The translations under genes and the position numbers were made by a program. 64,000 bases of DNA from the NCBI GenBank assembly GCA_001600635.1, contig BCKL01000007.1, positions 148,303-212,302 on the forward strand, given 5' to 3'. Below are positions 4,684 to 64,000 of the stretch, piece by piece (position 1 is the first letter of the stretch; each line of letters opens with the position of its first letter). Origin of the DNA: Leucosporidium creatinivorum. Its lineage: Eukaryota; Basidiomycota; Microbotryomycetes; Leucosporidiales; Leucosporidiaceae. A model generated the notes under the pieces. The model was not told the DNA's origin, did no database searches, and was given only the letters and a program-made list of their open reading frames with translations.

Positions 4684-6000
4684 ATGCTCCTTATGATTGA
4701 CACGATTACAGGCGACGAGATGATCTCGGACGCCTACGACGTGAGTCGCTGCAGAACGAGCTTGGGAGGCGGAGCTGCTCGCTTTCCACGATTCAACTTT
4801 CGCCGAGGGCGTTCTGGAGGCGCGGGAGCTGGACGGGGCAGGGGCGACAACTTTATGCACCAGCTGCATACCATTGGAGCAGCCACAGCACCTCCCAGTC
4901 CCTCTCTACAGCTCCCACGGCACGTTTTTGTCGTTCCAGTCCAAGACGCTAACTATCGCCCAATGGGTCGTCTCTGATACAGCTCACCATCGTCGACGAT
5001 GTCATCTACGAGGCTGACTGCCACATGATCACCCTCGGAGCCACCGCCGTTAACACCGGAGCCAACGCGTGAGTCCCGCCGAACCTCTCTCCTCGCCGGT
5101 GCCGCTCCTTCGGAATGGGTCAAGATGGATGCTGGGCTACTCGGGAGCAGCGCATCTTGTATCGGCATTGGAGATGGTGATCTGGGCCTATCGTACACAT
5201 GCTAACTGTACTTCCTTGCAGTTCCGCTGAGGAGGCCGAGGAGGAGACTGAGGATGGAGAGCAGAAGGTCAACAACATTGTCAACTCCTTCCGCCTCACC
5301 GCTACCTCCTTCGACAAGAAGTCCTTCCTCACCTACCTCAAGGTGCGTCGCCGCTCTGGCTTTGGAGCTATCGAGCTCGACTCGGTCGGCGATCCTTCTT
5401 GGGCTCTGCTAACCCTTCCACGTACAGGGCTACATGAAGGAGATCAAGACCAAGCTCCAGGAGACCAACCCCGACCGCGTCGCCGCCTTCGAGAAGGGAG
5501 CCCAGACCTTCGCCAAGAAGTGAGCTTCGCCGATCCTTTCGCCGAACTTCGTTTGCTGACCTCTGTTTCGCTCCATAGGGTTGTCGCTAACTTCAAGGAC
5601 TACGAGTTCTACACCGGAGAGTCGTGAGTCACATCTTCGCAACTGGGGGGGCAGATTCGGACGCCTCAAGGCGTTCGAGCCACCCCGCCGCGCTGAGCAT
5701 GCTGGCTGACCACTTCTTCACTACAGGATGAACCCCGACGGAATGGTCGCCCTCCTCAACTACCGCGAGGACGGAACCACCCCTTACTTGTACGTTGTTC
5801 AGCCTCGAAACGGTTTCTCGGCGATTCCTGACCTTCTCACCGCCCTCCCTCGCTCCAACACCCCTCCGGCACCTCACAACATTGCTACAACGCTTTCTGT
5901 AGCTCATTCTGGCGAGATGGTCTCAAAGGTCGGTCCGATCCGTCTGCACACGAACTTAACACTTACGCGATTTTCCGTCTCCGCAGAGGTCAAGCTCTAA
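4684..6000 (+). CDS. TMA19: Translationally controlled tumour protein (TCTP)
   Basis: A conserved eukaryotic protein bound to ribosomes and microtubules, acting in growth and stress responses. Eight exons (4684-4740, 4983-5068, 5222-5342, 5428-5519, 5579-5623, 5727-5789, 5903-5928, 5987-6000) join in frame to 167 residues, the normal family length. The N-terminus MLLMIDTITGDEMISDAYD and the following VDDVIYEADCHMI are diagnostic. The end is FWRDGLKEVKL. The first intron (242 nt) is much longer than the others and could hold control elements. The intron before the last exon uses an unusual GTCGGT donor. The final exons are tiny, with 14 nt in the last. Identity is certain; the exon ends are read by eye. 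Confidence 0.95.
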
Positions 6001-6387
6001 ACGACTCGCTCCCTACCCCGGTGCACCCTCGTTCTCAGCTTTTGTTCTTCTTTTGGTTTTCTGTAGCGCATCCTTCTTTGCTCATAGGGCTTGGGGACGT
6101 CGGGCTGCTAATCACAGAGCTCTTCGTTCTCGAGATTCCTGGGTCGGGTCCGAGGCGCGAAGAGAGCGGGTTCCGGGGACTTTCGATGATCTCAGCTCAC
6201 GCACACGCTGTAGAATGATGGACGACATCGCGTTAGTCCTCTCAAGGAGGCACATCTACGCAGAGAAACTCGCTTTTTCGGTCGTTGACGAACATCGCCG
6301 AGCTCTCGCCATCTTCACTGTTCGCTACAGCAAGGGGGAGAAAGTAACCGGGCCGATATCGAGAAACACTTTTCGAACCATGAGATG

Positions 6388-6765
6388 ACCTCTGGTGTGT
6401 TGAGGAGCGCCCGAAGAAGATACATGACCAGCTGCTGGGCCGTCGTGGTCGCCATGGTCGGCCTCATCCTCCTCACCGTCTCCGCCATCCCCTCGGTCAT
6501 CTCCAACCCCAACGGCTCTCTCGCATGCTTTGTGATTAGCATTGTTATCATGGGGTGTGGAACCGGAGGGTGAGCTCCTCTCAGCTCGGAGAATGAGCAG
6601 CAGAACCGAGTCTGACCCTTCTCGGCGCCTATCTCGCAGATTCAAGTCCAACATTGCTCCTCTCATCGCTGAGGAAACCAACGTCGAAAACCTTCGTGTC
6701 AAGACCCTCAAGAATGGTTCCTAGGTCACTTTTGACCCCGTCATGAGTGAGTTGGCAAGCAGGCG
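6388..6765 (+). pseudogene. Relic of a PTR2-type peptide transporter
   Basis: A short stretch encodes AMVGLILLTVSAIPSVI, then a GTGAGC...CAG intron at 6571-6639, then FKSNIAPLIAEETNVENLR. This matches the conserved GTGGFKSNIAPLIAEQ region after a transmembrane segment in proton-coupled oligopeptide transporters (POT/PTR2 family). Typical family members have about 12 membrane segments and 550-620 residues; here only about 100 residues are recognisable. An in-frame TAG follows NGS at 6722-6724, after which VTFDPVM still looks like the family. No N- or C-terminal part was found on either side, so it is a remnant rather than a gene. Confidence 0.7.
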
Positions 6766-7065
6766 AGGCAGCTTGGCTTTCGGCGCTCGCCGACTTCGAC
6801 CGACGAGCCTCGCCCGTAGACTAACCCGTGCTCCTCAGCCACCGACCCTTTTTTTCATCACACGTTTCCGATCCTGTGCGTAGAGTTGACTAAATGAGGG
6901 GCTGCCCATTCGCTGAAGTTGCGCGAGAGCTCGCCTCACATCACAGCTCGCCGAGCAGGTTCGCCCTGCGCCGGGCTTTAAAGGTTGAACGAAGATGTGC
7001 GATTGCGAGGATAGAAGCGTGAAAGAACGATATGTTGCTGTAACTCAGCCGAGCCCCGTCGAAGA
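6766..7065. other. Intergenic, no gene seen
   Basis: Between the PTR2 relic and the stop codon of the glycosyltransferase gene. It includes an intron-like stretch at the left end, probably left from the transporter gene, and the 3' UTR of the minus-strand gene. Nothing else was recognised. Confidence 0.3.
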
Positions 7066-9491
7066 TCAGCCGAGAGACCTGCGATGAAGACTGGTCAGCG
7101 CCGAGCCGCAAAAGTTGAGCGCCGAGATGACTTACCAGCTCTCAGCGAGTTGCGAGTATGTGGCGATACTGACGAATGGTGACGAGTCAGCTCACGTGAC
7201 GGCCGCGAGCGGCAGGGGACTCACGAAGAGTCCAATCGGCAGTCGAGCTTCGGCCGAGTGACAGTTCCATGCGGGCCAGCGGCCGCTCGCCCGACGCGGA
7301 TGGTCGAGCCGGGACGACCACGAAGCCAAGTTGGAATCTTGCCGAATCCTGAATGCGCCGTCAGGATCTGGAAGTCGGTCCCTGTGAGCGCAAGAGGTGA
7401 GCGATCGCTCGCGACTCGCGAGCCGAGAAGCAGATCGGCGGAAGCGTACCAGCGAAGGTCCTGAACCGAGGGGCGAGTCAGTGAAGGTAAGAGGAGCAGG
7501 ATGGGGCGCAGCCAAGCTCACCAAGTCTCGGCCAGCGTGTCCATGAAGCCTTTAGCATCGGCGGTGACCTTCTCCAAGTCGAACAGCGCCGTCGACTCCT
7601 TCTCAGCCTGCACCTCAGCCTTCATCTGCTGCTTCCCACCAATTTCAATATGCTTCTGCGCCAATCCCGAGACGACGACCGAGGAAGGGTACGCTCGAAC
7701 GGCATCTTGGCGAAGGTGCGCCGAGTCGGTGATGATGTAGTAGACGATCTTCTGTGAGGGCTTGGCGTAGGTCATGGCGACCTGCTCAGCGCACTCGAAG
7801 TAGTGGCGATGGCGGTCGACGGTGTTGACCATGTCGTCCTTGGCCGAGCGCTGCGAAGGGAGAGAGTGTGTGAGCAGCAGCGCTTGGCGACAGTGTAGCA
7901 GAGAGCTCACCATGTACTTGTCGCCTGTACGGATCTGGATGCCGATAGTGAAGACCGAGGGGAGAGCGAAGAATGAGGTGTATTGATGGATGAAGGCGAG
8001 CGAGGAGGGCTTCGGTCGGATGAGGTAGTTGATGAGCGACGAGTAGGCGTGGTCCATGGTAAAGCCAAGTGCTTCGAGTTGCGGAGCGACCGCAGGGTAG
8101 CGGAAGCTGCGAAGGGTCACGCCTCGGTTCATCGCCTCGTTCTGCAAGCGGGAGGCGAGGGCGAGTGAGAGAGCGAGCGAAAGAGGAGGAGGAGGCGCGA
8201 AAGGGAGACAGGAGGAGGAGCGGAAGGAGCAGTCAGCTATTTGTTCACGCGCTCGCGCGATCTCCGTTGTACTCACGATGATCCAGTCCTCGCGAAGCGT
8301 GGAAAAAATGGGCCAGAATGCATCGAGCACCGGCTCCGAAGGGTTGTGGCTGTGGGTGAGGGTGAGGGCGTTCAAGACGAGAGTCTGATTGGTGTAGATG
8401 TCGCGAGTCGCGGTTGATCCCGGTTTGAAGCGCTGAGACCAGTCGACGTTCGGCGAATCGAAGAGGACGTCGAACGGGAGCGGATGCTCCCACGAGACGG
8501 AGAAGGCGCGGCCAGTGAGGATGGCGTAGAGGAAGGTCGAGGTGATCCCGAGCACGCTGTTTAAGAGCAAGTGAGCGACGGTCGGCAACGAGTCGGAGTG
8601 CAGGGCTCACCGGTCGCCGAGCCCTCCACAGAGCTTCGCATTGGGGCAGCGATACTCGAGCAGCTTCGGGTCTCGCTCGCCGCTCAGAATCTGCAGAAGA
8701 GGACGTCAGCGATTATCGAAGGGGGGAGAGAGAAGCAGTACTGCTGACCTCGGCGTGAAGCTTGGTGTACTCGTCTTCCCATTTTCCTTTTCCGTGTCCT
8801 CGCTGGCGACCAGTCTGCCACTCCTCCAGCAGCTCAGCGTATCTGTGGAGAGCAGAGATGTTATGTTGGTCAGCAAGCTGTGAGCCTTCGATCGGGGTGA
8901 CAAATCGCCAGCTCACTTCTCCCAACTCCCCTCGCCGAACTCCCCAGGCCCTTCGTTCGGCCTCGGGAGGACACCATGAGCTTGTGCAGGCTGAGCAGGA
9001 CGAATCGGCTCTGGAGGAGAAGCAGCTCCAAGTCCAACGCCAACGCCCCGAGAAGCATGTGGTCGAGTCGCGAGCAGCCAGTCTCGCGTTCGGCGATCAT
9101 CCTGCGAGCCGAACAAGGGTCAGCTTAGCCAGGCGCTGGAGGACAGTCGGAAATTTACCTCGTCCAGCTCAGCAATCATCACCCTCAGCGTCTCGTCAAT
9201 CTCTGGCGTCTCCCACTTGTAATCGCGCAGCTTCTCCTCCTCCTCGGTCCACTGCACCGCCTTCTGCTCGACTCCTTCTGCCCATTCCTCGCCGATGACC
9301 TGTCCGTCTTGGCTGCTGAGCGTCTGAGGCGTGGGTAAACCGAGTCCGAAGCTGCTGAGCGATGCGTCCTCTGCATTCGCATGAGTCCCGACCAGCATGA
9401 GAAGGGCGAAGGCGGCGATGCCTCCTCCTATGAGCATTCGTTTGTTCCGCCTGTTGTTCTCCTCGTCGGCGGCCGCCCATGTAGGTAGCAT
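7066..9491 (-). CDS. Fucosyltransferase-like type II membrane glycosyltransferase
   Basis: Likely a Golgi enzyme moving a sugar, perhaps fucose, from a nucleotide donor to a glycan. Eleven exons join in frame to about 581 residues. A short basic cytoplasmic tail (NNRRNKR) is followed by one membrane helix (residues about 19-37), as in type II Golgi enzymes. CGGLGDRVLGITSTFLYA near residue 225 resembles the GGLGDR segment of plant xyloglucan fucosyltransferases (GT37). IGIQIRTGDKYM fits the basic donor-binding motif, and SGFGKIP near the end fits the last conserved motif. The best model needs an 11-nt exon (7450-7460) before exon 7225-7381, then small exons 7136-7168 and 7066-7078. The start is the first ATG before the membrane helix. 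Family placement is inference from motifs, and the acceptor is unknown. Confidence 0.7.
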
Positions 9492-59584: not shown

Positions 59585-62500
59585 CTAACGCTGACCCTGC
59601 TTGCCGAACGCCTTGGGCTTCATCCCCTTGCGATGATCTCGAGCGACTCCGGCGACCCACTCGCCACCCTTGATCGTCTCGAGCTCCTTCAACAGTACAG
59701 TGAAGGCGTCGACGATGGGGATCTCCTCGGCCTGCTGCTGGAGCGAGATGGTGTGGTTGTACATCGGCGTTCCTTCGGCGAGGGGTTGGGCCGTCTGCGA
59801 GTGCGCCGAGAGAGGGTAATAGAGCTCCTCCTCGGGGATGGACCACTGCAGCTTGGACGCGATCTTAGCAATGTGGCGTTGCATGCGGTGAATCTCCCTC
59901 GGCGTGATTTGCTCGAGGCGCTGGATGAGGGTAGGGCCGACACCGTTGATCATCTCGTTCTCGTCGACGTAGACGGTGTATCGCGACATGTCGTTGATCT
60001 CAGGCGACGAGGGGAAGAGGCGGCCGTAGCTCTTCTCGCGGAAGATGACGGGGATGCAGCCGAGGAGGAGCGCCTCGTAGATGGCGCGGCGGGTGGGCGA
60101 GTCGCCGGCGGGTTGAGGGCAGAAGATGGACTGGGACATGTGCTCGTGGAAGGCGGTGAGGTTCTGGGCGCCGTCGAACGAGTTGGTGATGTCGTCGAAG
60201 ATGATGGTGGAGGTGGCGTCGGGAGGAGGGGAGTTGGTGTAGGCGGAGAACTCCTTGTGGAGGACGTTGCGAAGGGCGAAGCCGTTGAAGGGATCGGAAG
60301 CGGGAAGTCCCCAAGGGTGACTCGCGGCGGCGGCGTAGTGGAGGCTGAGGAGGGAGAAGCGCAGGGTCAGCGCCGAGCTCGTTCGAGAAAGGCTGAAGTC
60401 AAACGTACAGAGAGTGACGGTTCTGGTTCAACCAGTAGTCTCCAGATCCAGGCTTGGCGCCGCTCTGAGAGAGCGAGAGATGGAAGGAAGTGGGGTCTGG
60501 CGAGGAGGAGAAAGGTCAGCTTCGGCGCCGAGCATCTTTCGGCAGGCTCAAACTCACAAGGAACGTCGATCAAGTACTTGAGTCCCTCCTGGTAGGTCTT
60601 GGGAGCCGACTCGATGGACACGATGATGACGCTATCCTTGAGCTCCTCCATCAGCTCGGGCGTGAGGATCTGAGCCTCGAGGTTGGAGCGAATGCCCGCG
60701 ACGGGGAGGATGATGCGAGGGTAGTCGGTAGGTCCGACGCTGGCGACGATTTGGCGGAGGTACTCGGTGGTCTGACGGATGCCCTCGGCGAGGTCGGGCA
60801 CTTGGCAGCCCCAAGGGTTGGACCAGATTTGCGAGAGGACGGGGAGGAAGATGAAGTCGGGTGAAGGGGTCGAGAGGAGGGGCACGTTGCGAGCGTAGTC
60901 GACCATGCGAGTGGTGAGGATGTCGTCGAGAGCGTATTGATTGGTGTTGGCGACGTAGTAAGGGTAGTCCTGCAAGCGAGAGAAAGGTTAGCGACTCTGC
61001 GAGAGAGCTCGTCGGCGCCGAACTCACCGAAGGGACGGGGTGGTTGCCTCCGTAAGGCGCCTTGTTCGAGTACCGGTTAGGCGAAAGACCCCAACCGCAA
61101 GCTCCCTCTCCAACACCAGCAGCCTTGGTCATGAGCGCGTTGATGGGTCCCATGTCGGCAATGGCGATTGTCGGCAGGTGCGAGATGCCGTGAGGAGCGG
61201 CCGAGTGCTCTGCAACGAGATCCCATGCACCATCGGTGACGGAGAAGTGGCGCGAAGGGAAGACGGCGACTCCAAAGGTGGTGGCGAGGATGACGAGGAG
61301 GAAGTAGTGCCAGCGGCGGAGGAGAGGCTTGGAGGGGGAGAAGGGGTCGGGCTTGAGGAGTTGGCGGAGGAACTTGTCGTCGGCCTCGTACAGCAGGGTC
61401 GATCCGACGACGGCGAGTCCCCCGAGAGTCGAGGGGACGGTGAGCTTGAAGTCGAAGAGGATGACCGAGAGGAGGAAGGTGAAGACGATCGAGATGGAGA
61501 GGGCGAATCCCTTGGCGACGTTGTCGGCGTACTTGATGGCGAGGGCTGTAAGAGAGAGGTCAGCAATGCTTCTCGAGACGCTAAGACGCTACAACTCACC
61601 GATGAGAAGACCTCCAACGGTTTGGAGGGCAATCACGAACCAGACCATGGGGTGGAAGCCGTCGAAGAAGCCTTGAGCGGCCGTCATCACGGGATCGTAC
61701 CAGTGCTCGAGGGGGTCAACCATGCCCTTGAAGTCGAGGGAGAGGCCTCCGTAGCCCATAATGTGGCCGGGGTTGGCCTGGACGAGGACGACGATGATGC
61801 CGAAGAGGGTCGAGAAGAGCGAGAGCTGGATGTTGCGCACCCAGAGGCTCGTGGGCTTGATGTCGGGAGGAGCGACGAGGAGGAACTCTTGCACCTCGGG
61901 CACGACGGGCTTCTTCTTGATGACGAGCTCAAAGTAGGTGGCGGCGATGGCGCTCGAGAAGCACGAGATGAGGACGGCCGAGACTCCCGTGAGGTAGCTG
62001 GCGGTCTCGGTGGTGGGTACTGGTCCATGGTCGTGGGAGTCGGCGGCCTTGGCGTGGATGGCTCCGAGCTGCATCGTCGCGACGCCGGCGCCGAGCATGA
62101 GGAGCGAGAACCACTGAGTGATGGTGAGGCGACGACCGAGCATCGCGACGGCGCACATGGCGGTGATGAGGGTCTGTAGAGGTGTAAGAAGGTCAGCTTG
62201 TTGATCCGTACAGCCCAAGAAGCGCCGATGAAGAGCTCACCTTGAGCTGGAAAGTGATCTGGAAGACGGGGACCGAGAGGTTGCGCGCCGCTACGTAGAT
62301 CAGGTTGTTCTGAACGGCGAAGAGTACGGCAGGAATGCCCATCTTCCACCAGTCCGAACCGAAGATGTCCTCCCAAAGCATCGCCCTCAAGCCCATCCGC
62401 CGCCGCCGAGTCCAGAGGACGGGGTCGGTGAGCATCTTGACGAGCTCGGGCGAGCCTGGTAGTCCATCCTTCTCCTGTACGACGGGCGAGAGGGGAGCGC

Positions 62501-63172
62501 GAGGCCATTGAAACGTGCTGAGCGTCGAGTTCTCGGGGAAGCGCTTGAGCTTGCCTCCCTTGCCTCCTCCATCCATCTGCACGCTCAGCGTATCGGAGGG
62601 GGCCATCGCCGAGCTACGACGACGGAGGTTGTTGCTGCTCTGCAGGCCGGGCGCCTGACCGTTGACCAGGAGGGAGGGAGGGGTCGTGTCGAAGGGGTCG
62701 TCGGCGTAGACGTCCTTTTGGTGGACTTCGTCGGCGAGGGCGTACAGTTCGGGGGAGGGGAGGTTATGCCGAGGGGCGTGTAGGGTTGCGCGCTCTTTCC
62801 ATGCGTCGCGAAGGGCGAGAAGAACGGAAAGGACCAGCTTTCCAATCTCTGCGAAGGGGCGGCGCGAAGGGCGAAGGGGTGAAGGGTAGGGGAAAGAGTC
62901 AGCATGGGCTTCCCGCCAACTGTACAAAGAACGCATTGTCCACTCACCGGTGATGAGGACGGCGCTCGACGCCTTGTACTGCACTTGTCCCGGCTTCAAG
63001 TTGGCCTGGGAAACGTGAAGGCTGGTCGACGACGAAGGGAGTGTAAGGTCAGCTCTGGTGTGGTGGGTGAGCAGGAGCGACAGGCTTACATGATTGCGAG
63101 AGCGGTCGACTGCAAGCAGACGGCAGCCAAGCTGATGAGGCGGTAAGGGGAGGATTCGCGCACGCCAGTCAT
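59585..63172 (-). CDS. Nucleotide-sugar transporter fused to exostosin glycosyltransferase
   Basis: One gene of roughly 1040 residues in about eight exons. The first half is a nucleotide-sugar transporter of the SLC35A type: LHVSQANLKPGQVQYKASSA, IPAVLFAVQNNLIYVAARNL, PVFQITFQLKTLITAMCAV and YADNVAKGFALSISIVFTFL are family landmarks. A disordered loop (about 62530-62740) is inserted after the second helix. A linker with one more hydrophobic segment (HYFLLVILATTFGVAVF) leads to the exostosin (GT47-like) part: YALDDILTTRMVDYARNVP, PDFIFLPVLSQIWSNPWG, QSIFCPQPAGDSPTRRAIYE and ALLLGCIPVIF. The joining intron after NHPVPS is phase 0 on both sides, with no start, stop or promoter space between the halves. 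A Golgi location is inferred. Donor sugar and product are unknown. Confidence 0.88.
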
Positions 63173-63707: not shown

Positions 63708-64000
63708 ATGACCTCCAGCGCGGCCCAAGTTCACTTCAGATCATTATCAGGCTCCACCATGAGCCGTCGCCCATCCGTGAGCTACCGCTCGTCGCTGGAC
63801 CTCAAAGCCGACGAGGACGACGCACTGGACCACCAAGCGCTGCTGCTCAACAGCTCGGCTCGGCCTACTCGACTACCACGCACCTACCGCTGTCTCCGTA
63901 CTAGCGCTTTCCTCGGCTGGACCCTCTCCTTCCTCCTCCTCATCGTCCTCGTCGTCAGCCATTCGACCATGGCGCCCGAGATTCCTCGAGTGGACCTTCG
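63708..64000 (+). CDS. Type II membrane protein, N-terminal part (partial)
   Basis: The frame opens at ATG 63708 and runs off the window end, giving 97 codons. A Ser-rich, charged cytoplasmic tail (SRRPSVSYRSSLDLKADEDD) is followed by one membrane helix (FLGWTLSFLLLIVLVVSH) at about residues 69-86. This layout is typical of Golgi glycosyltransferases, vacuolar peptidases and some phosphatases. A second ATG 17 codons downstream is a possible start. The function cannot be judged from this part. It shares a divergent promoter with the transporter-exostosin fusion. Confidence 0.55.
   Translation, partial: MTSSAAQVHFRSLSGSTMSRRPSVSYRSSLDLKADEDDALDHQALLLNSSARPTRLPRTYRCLRTSAFLGWTLSFLLLIVLVVSHSTMAPEIPRVDL

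Follow-up and report, generated by a model that had tools for sequence, protein, structure and literature searches.

A single gene model in Leucosporidium creatinivorum predicted to join a nucleotide-sugar transporter to a lumenal GT47 exostosin domain

To our knowledge, it is unsettled whether nucleotide-sugar transporters fill a common lumenal pool or hand over their substrates to particular enzymes. A locus in the basidiomycete Leucosporidium creatinivorum raises this question within one predicted polypeptide: an initial annotation of a 64,000-nucleotide stretch of contig C7 (positions 148303 to 212302, hereafter the window) had proposed that an SLC35-type transporter and an exostosin glycosyltransferase share one open frame. 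We considered whether the two halves form one gene, where they meet, on which side of the membrane the enzyme would lie, and what such an arrangement might do.

The coding region occupies 59585 to 63172 of the window on the minus strand, with an ATG at 63172 and a stop codon ending at 59585, exactly the coordinates first given for it. Our model, in which splice sites were picked from sequence alone, divides it into eight exons and seven introns encoding 1038 amino acids. The introns measure 68, 99, 67, 54, 58, 61, and 64 nt, and all run from GT to AG; CTGAC is present in six of the seven and CTAAC in the remaining one. The sole alternative acceptor that was tried, at 63006 for intron 1, was rejected because the resulting frame was full of stops. 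Once spliced, the frame comprises 1038 codons without a stop. The openness of a frame is weak evidence when taken alone, as 120 codons are open by chance in about 2% of cases; codon usage was scored against a reference set of 2410 codons, drawn from the four stop-to-stop frames (putative genes) that are the longest non-overlapping ones in the rest of the window. In all 21 bins, the fusion frame ranked highest of the three frames, also across the junction and in the last bin of 38 codons; values were weak, at 0.05–0.10 bits per codon, for residues 201–250, 551–600, and 1001–1038. It is the combination of consistent splicing, codon usage, and two family matches above cut-off that makes the single-gene model credible. 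In this predicted model the transporter and the GT47 exostosin are one gene with one open spliced frame, and the central proposal of the initial annotation stands; the halves are separated neither by a stop nor by a start that could be used.

A domain search of the joined protein bore out both family assignments, returning the nucleotide-sugar transporter family PF04142 (1.3e-69, 235.2 bits against a cut-off of 27) and the GT47 exostosin family PF03016 (1.3e-17, 64.5 bits against 33.4). The transporter half covers residues 1–499 (61388 to 63172, minus strand, introns within), and its PF04142 match falls into two stretches, the best at residues 187–499. Two further Pfam families match the same half more weakly, UAA, which passes its cut-off, and EamA, which does not reach its own, and the NCBIfam model "solute carrier family 35 transporter" matched residues 1–544 with 141.9 bits against 55.85. 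A PDB search with the fusion returned three sequences at E ≤ 0.01, all of them CMP-sialic acid transporters, the best being 6oh2 (mCST; E = 7.5e-30). A Kyte-Doolittle scan with a cut of 1.0 predicted ten membrane segments in residues 13–499 and an eleventh at residues 526–544. The ten segments, the PF04142 match, and most of the substrate site are thus features that the protein has in common with SLC35A transporters, whereas the eleventh predicted helix, a 494-residue C-terminal lumenal enzyme, and a 156-residue loop between TM2 and TM3 set it apart from them.

The substrate site was compared with that of mCST, in which the roles of K55, K124, F195, N210, and K272 are described in a section of PMC6508934. 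Five of the seven residues checked are identical: K255, F336, N369, and K458 correspond to K124, F195, N210, and K272 in strongly aligned regions, and K56 corresponds to K55 through a weakly aligned N-terminal stretch (2.0 bits). The other two are changed in what may be the direction of UDP-sugar transporters, Y214 of mCST being replaced by Ser373 and S261 by Ala447; according to the same section of PMC6508934, UDP-Gal and UDP-GlcNAc transporters have Gly at mCST position 214 and Ala at position 261. Ala447 therefore agrees with UGT and NGT, while Ser373 is small like the Gly of mammalian UDP-sugar transporters yet is not Gly, which is a point against a UDP-sugar reading. On this comparison with the mammalian transporters, the predicted donor leans toward a UDP-sugar.

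The loop between TM2 and TM3 (residues 66–221; 62343 to 62810, minus strand) is predicted to be cytosolic, and contains many charged residues as well as much Ser, Pro, and Gly. A disordered loop in the transporter had at first been thought unusual, but standalone paralogues, read from unspliced frames, have a seemingly long TM2–TM3 stretch on contig C20, a short one on C4, and an intermediate one on C1. Because the C20 transporter appears similar in this respect, we dropped the idea that the loop is tied to the fusion. In the C4 paralogue (C4:1452000–1460000), the unspliced frame has a long Ser/Thr/Pro-rich stretch before an RNLQ motif, and low-complexity inserts may recur at differing places among the PF04142 paralogues of this genome.

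The two halves meet within exon 5 (61028 to 61545, minus strand), which by splice model, hydropathy, and codon usage spans TM9, TM10, a linker, and TM11 and runs on into the lumenal part. The linker (residues 500–525; 61310 to 61387) is basic, with six K/R and four D/E, and is predicted to be cytosolic; its 26 residues, or 78 bp, are all that separates TM10 from TM11 (residues 526–544; 61253 to 61309), a predicted helix placed as a type II signal anchor would be. A helix at TM11 is also present in a low-confidence AlphaFold model of exon 5 alone, built without relatives (mean pLDDT 46.1, too low for the model to be usable). The family boundary consequently falls between residue 499, where the PF04142 match ends, and residue 544, where TM11 ends. 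The initial annotation had instead placed the join at a phase-0 intron after NHPVPS; that intron is indeed found in our model, as intron 5 (60970 to 61027, between NHPVPS and DYPYYV), but it sits inside the enzyme half and was rejected as the fusion point. Between residues 431 and 578, the fusion frame contains no in-frame ATG, so that a separate enzyme with TM11 as its anchor could not start here unless it had an unseen leader exon. With no start, stop, or spacing between the halves, a reading as two separate genes was rejected.

The remaining 494 residues (545–1038; 59588 to 61252, minus strand, introns within) were delimited by Pfam, hydropathy, and comparison with a paralogue on contig C13. 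The PF03016 match covers residues 726–917 (59951 to 60651, interrupted by introns) and positions 121–283 of the 293 in the family model, the N-terminal half of the GT47 region being divergent. An acidic residue, E876 (codon 60074 to 60076), lies in YEALLLGCIPVI where the C13 paralogue has D; it was assigned to the conserved GT47 Asp/Glu from its motif rather than from a structure or an alignment to EXT1. A portion of PMC9178029 links the Asp/Glu of the GT47 C-terminal subdomain with binding of the donor, and also with activity in the case of hamster EXT1. Further searches yielded little about this half: an NCBIfam scan of residues 544–1038 matched zero families in a library built for prokaryotes, a PDB profile search with the enzyme half and the C13 paralogue at E ≤ 10 recovered no GT47 structure, and the sole row for the enzyme half (dAID23.4L, E = 0.11) looks like chance. 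An AlphaFold model of the C-terminal exon alone, made without relatives, had a mean pLDDT of 32.8, too low for the GT-B fold to be judged.

SLC35 proteins have both termini in the cytosol. Given a cytosolic N-terminus and an even number of predicted membrane segments (ten) before TM11, the GT47 half would be in the lumen, where the initial annotation had also expected it, and hydropathy suggests that it stands there behind TM11 as its membrane anchor. Two further segments in this part scored marginally above the cut of 1.0, at residues 573–591 (1.07) and 869–887 (1.05), the latter overlapping the GT47 match; we read both as probably soluble. The lumenal part has sequons at N847 and N982.

Among the matches listed for this genome, the fusion locus is the only one with both PF04142 and PF03016. 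There are at least four PF03016 loci (six matches), namely the fusion gene, C13:620k, C1:120k, and C1:1241k, and at least five PF04142 loci (11 matches), namely the fusion gene, C1:1713k, C4:1455k, C20:553k, and a weak one at C1:909k; both counts are lower bounds. In 14 control genomes, PF03016 matched in one (Synechococcus elongatus) and PF04142 in none. The GT47 paralogue on C13, like the fusion, has a PF03016 match above cut-off; it is 32% identical to the lumenal half, and GDSPTR and LLLGCIPVIFR are the same in both. It differs in that its N-terminus consists of a tail and a hydrophobic anchor of its own and in that it has no PF04142 among the nearby matches listed, whereas the anchor of the fusion follows a transporter. 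At C1:120k, a frame upstream of the PF03016 match also has an anchor-like stretch. In the simplest history, a type II enzyme would have lost the start it once had, and its anchor would now connect it to a transporter tail. Comparison of the C-terminal exon with prokaryotic contigs gave nine pattern stretches and zero relatives, and with viral contigs one pattern stretch and zero relatives, results that say little about fungi.

What could such a protein do? We consider it moderately probable that the gene encodes a self-supplying membrane glycosyltransferase, comprising a UDP-sugar antiporter, a linker with TM11, and a lumenal GT47 enzyme, in which import would feed transfer. The ten helices would act as an SLC35A-type antiporter for a UDP-sugar; from the cytosolic C-terminus of this transporter, the basic linker would lead into TM11, which would cross to the lumen bearing the GT47 half and would substitute for the N-terminal anchor of the enzyme. 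The UDP-sugar would be imported into the lumen of the Golgi (or ER) beside the enzyme, which, kept near the exit by TM11, would transfer the sugar to a glycan. In the general mechanism of these transporters, the antiporter takes in a UDP-sugar in exchange for UMP, which forms by cleavage of UDP; GT47 enzymes, for their part, use donors of the UDP-sugar type. A UDP-sugar would then be the donor shared by both halves, transport and transfer would be coupled, and proximity would speed transfer, with the counterpoint that the donors of transporter and enzyme could differ. The product may be a wall or extracellular glycan. GT47 is present in Mucoromycotina and Cryptococcus, where a glycosaminoglycan-like role is put forward as a hypothesis in a passage of PMC5872309. 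A stronger form of the proposal, in which a dedicated enzyme couples import to transfer within one chain and draws on a private donor supply apart from the general Golgi pool, is one that we hold tentatively, as possible but short of probable.

Proximity between pump and enzyme has a precedent, since mammalian SLC35A2 and SLC35A3 associate with glycosyltransferases: non-covalent pairs of SLC35A2 with UGT8, and of SLC35A2 and SLC35A3 with Mgats 1–5, are described in a part of PMC9368800. These pairs resemble the fusion in that a pump and an enzyme that uses its substrate are held together in the membrane, but they are separate, associating proteins, whereas the fusion is one polypeptide. The bi-domain exostosins EXT1, EXT2, and EXTL3 likewise combine GT47 with a second functional unit in one chain. 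Their partner is GT64, however, where the fusion has a transporter, and, in contrast to the heparan polymerases EXT1 and EXT2 with GT47 and GT64 in one chain, the fusion had no Pfam match to GT64 at E ≤ 0.1. A transporter–GT47 fusion was not described in the open-access titles and abstract starts among the matches listed, and may well be recorded elsewhere. Because a natural covalent pair fixes both the partner and a 1:1 ratio, cutting the linker would be a clean test of direct feeding; the fusion further suggests that an uncharacterised GT47 probably uses, as its donor, the sugar that the transporter carries.

The alternative that survives best is a conservative version of the same anatomy, against which we found no specific counterpoint: the single protein is real, but fusion serves co-targeting and fixed stoichiometry, as in retention within the correct Golgi cisterna, and the donor joins the pool in the lumen. 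TM11 and the basic linker resemble a typical type II anchor appended to a transporter tail, and the fusion could simply replace the N-terminal tail and hydrophobic segment that the C13 paralogue has of its own. The active sites of a bi-domain exostosin lie >45 Å apart and their reactions are not concerted, according to a section of PMC9178029, and so one chain need not mean hand-over. We regard this explanation as rather unlikely, though a serious contender.

Improbable, in our assessment, is a reading in which the GT47 half is a partner without catalytic activity, a scaffold or pseudoenzyme comparable to the GT47 domain of EXTL3, which is argued in part of PMC9178029 to be non-catalytic. The divergence of the N-terminal GT47 half, which Pfam leaves uncovered, would fit such a role, whereas the retention of an acidic donor-site residue at E876 and the two motifs identical in the C13 paralogue argue for a working enzyme. 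Most improbable of all is that two adjacent genes look like one because of an assembly error or the splice model: the genome (27.7 Mb) is in 63 contigs and the splice sites were chosen as described above, but the join lies in an uninterrupted exon, one frame of which shows codon usage like that of coding sequence, the gene contains no N, TM10 and TM11 are a mere 78 bp apart, and the enzyme would be left with no start codon ahead of its anchor.

Other glycosyltransferase matches lie near the C13 paralogue. Within C13:617000–625000 (local positions about 5186–8001), the paralogue stands head to head with a GT8 frame (PF01501, 1.8e-13), and about 1 kb beyond the latter, on the same strand, is a GT64 match (PF09258, 1.4e-32, in a piece joined by eye); the GT8 and GT64 matches are perhaps one gene. 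A set of GT47, GT8, and GT64 recalls animal matrix-glycan enzymes. Two GT64 matches on this contig, at C13:594147–594266 and C13:624037–624162, have equal scores of 24.7 bits; they are on opposite strands with some 30 kb between them and may represent an inverted duplication. Further GT64 matches occur on C8 and C19.

Within the window, the fusion gene has a divergent neighbour that begins 535 bp from its ATG and extends from 63708 to 64000 and on to about 65433 (L030 5011–6736), so that a common promoter region is possible. The model of this neighbour has six exons and 457 amino acids, with a hydrophobic stretch near the N-terminus noted by eye; it is perhaps HtrL/YibB-like, the match to PF09612 (E = 0.052, 13.6 bits) being below the cut-off of 24.1. 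Farther away, at 7518 to 8606 on the minus strand, is a 362-amino-acid frame that we take, by eye from the motif IQIRTGD, to resemble a fucosyltransferase-like enzyme.
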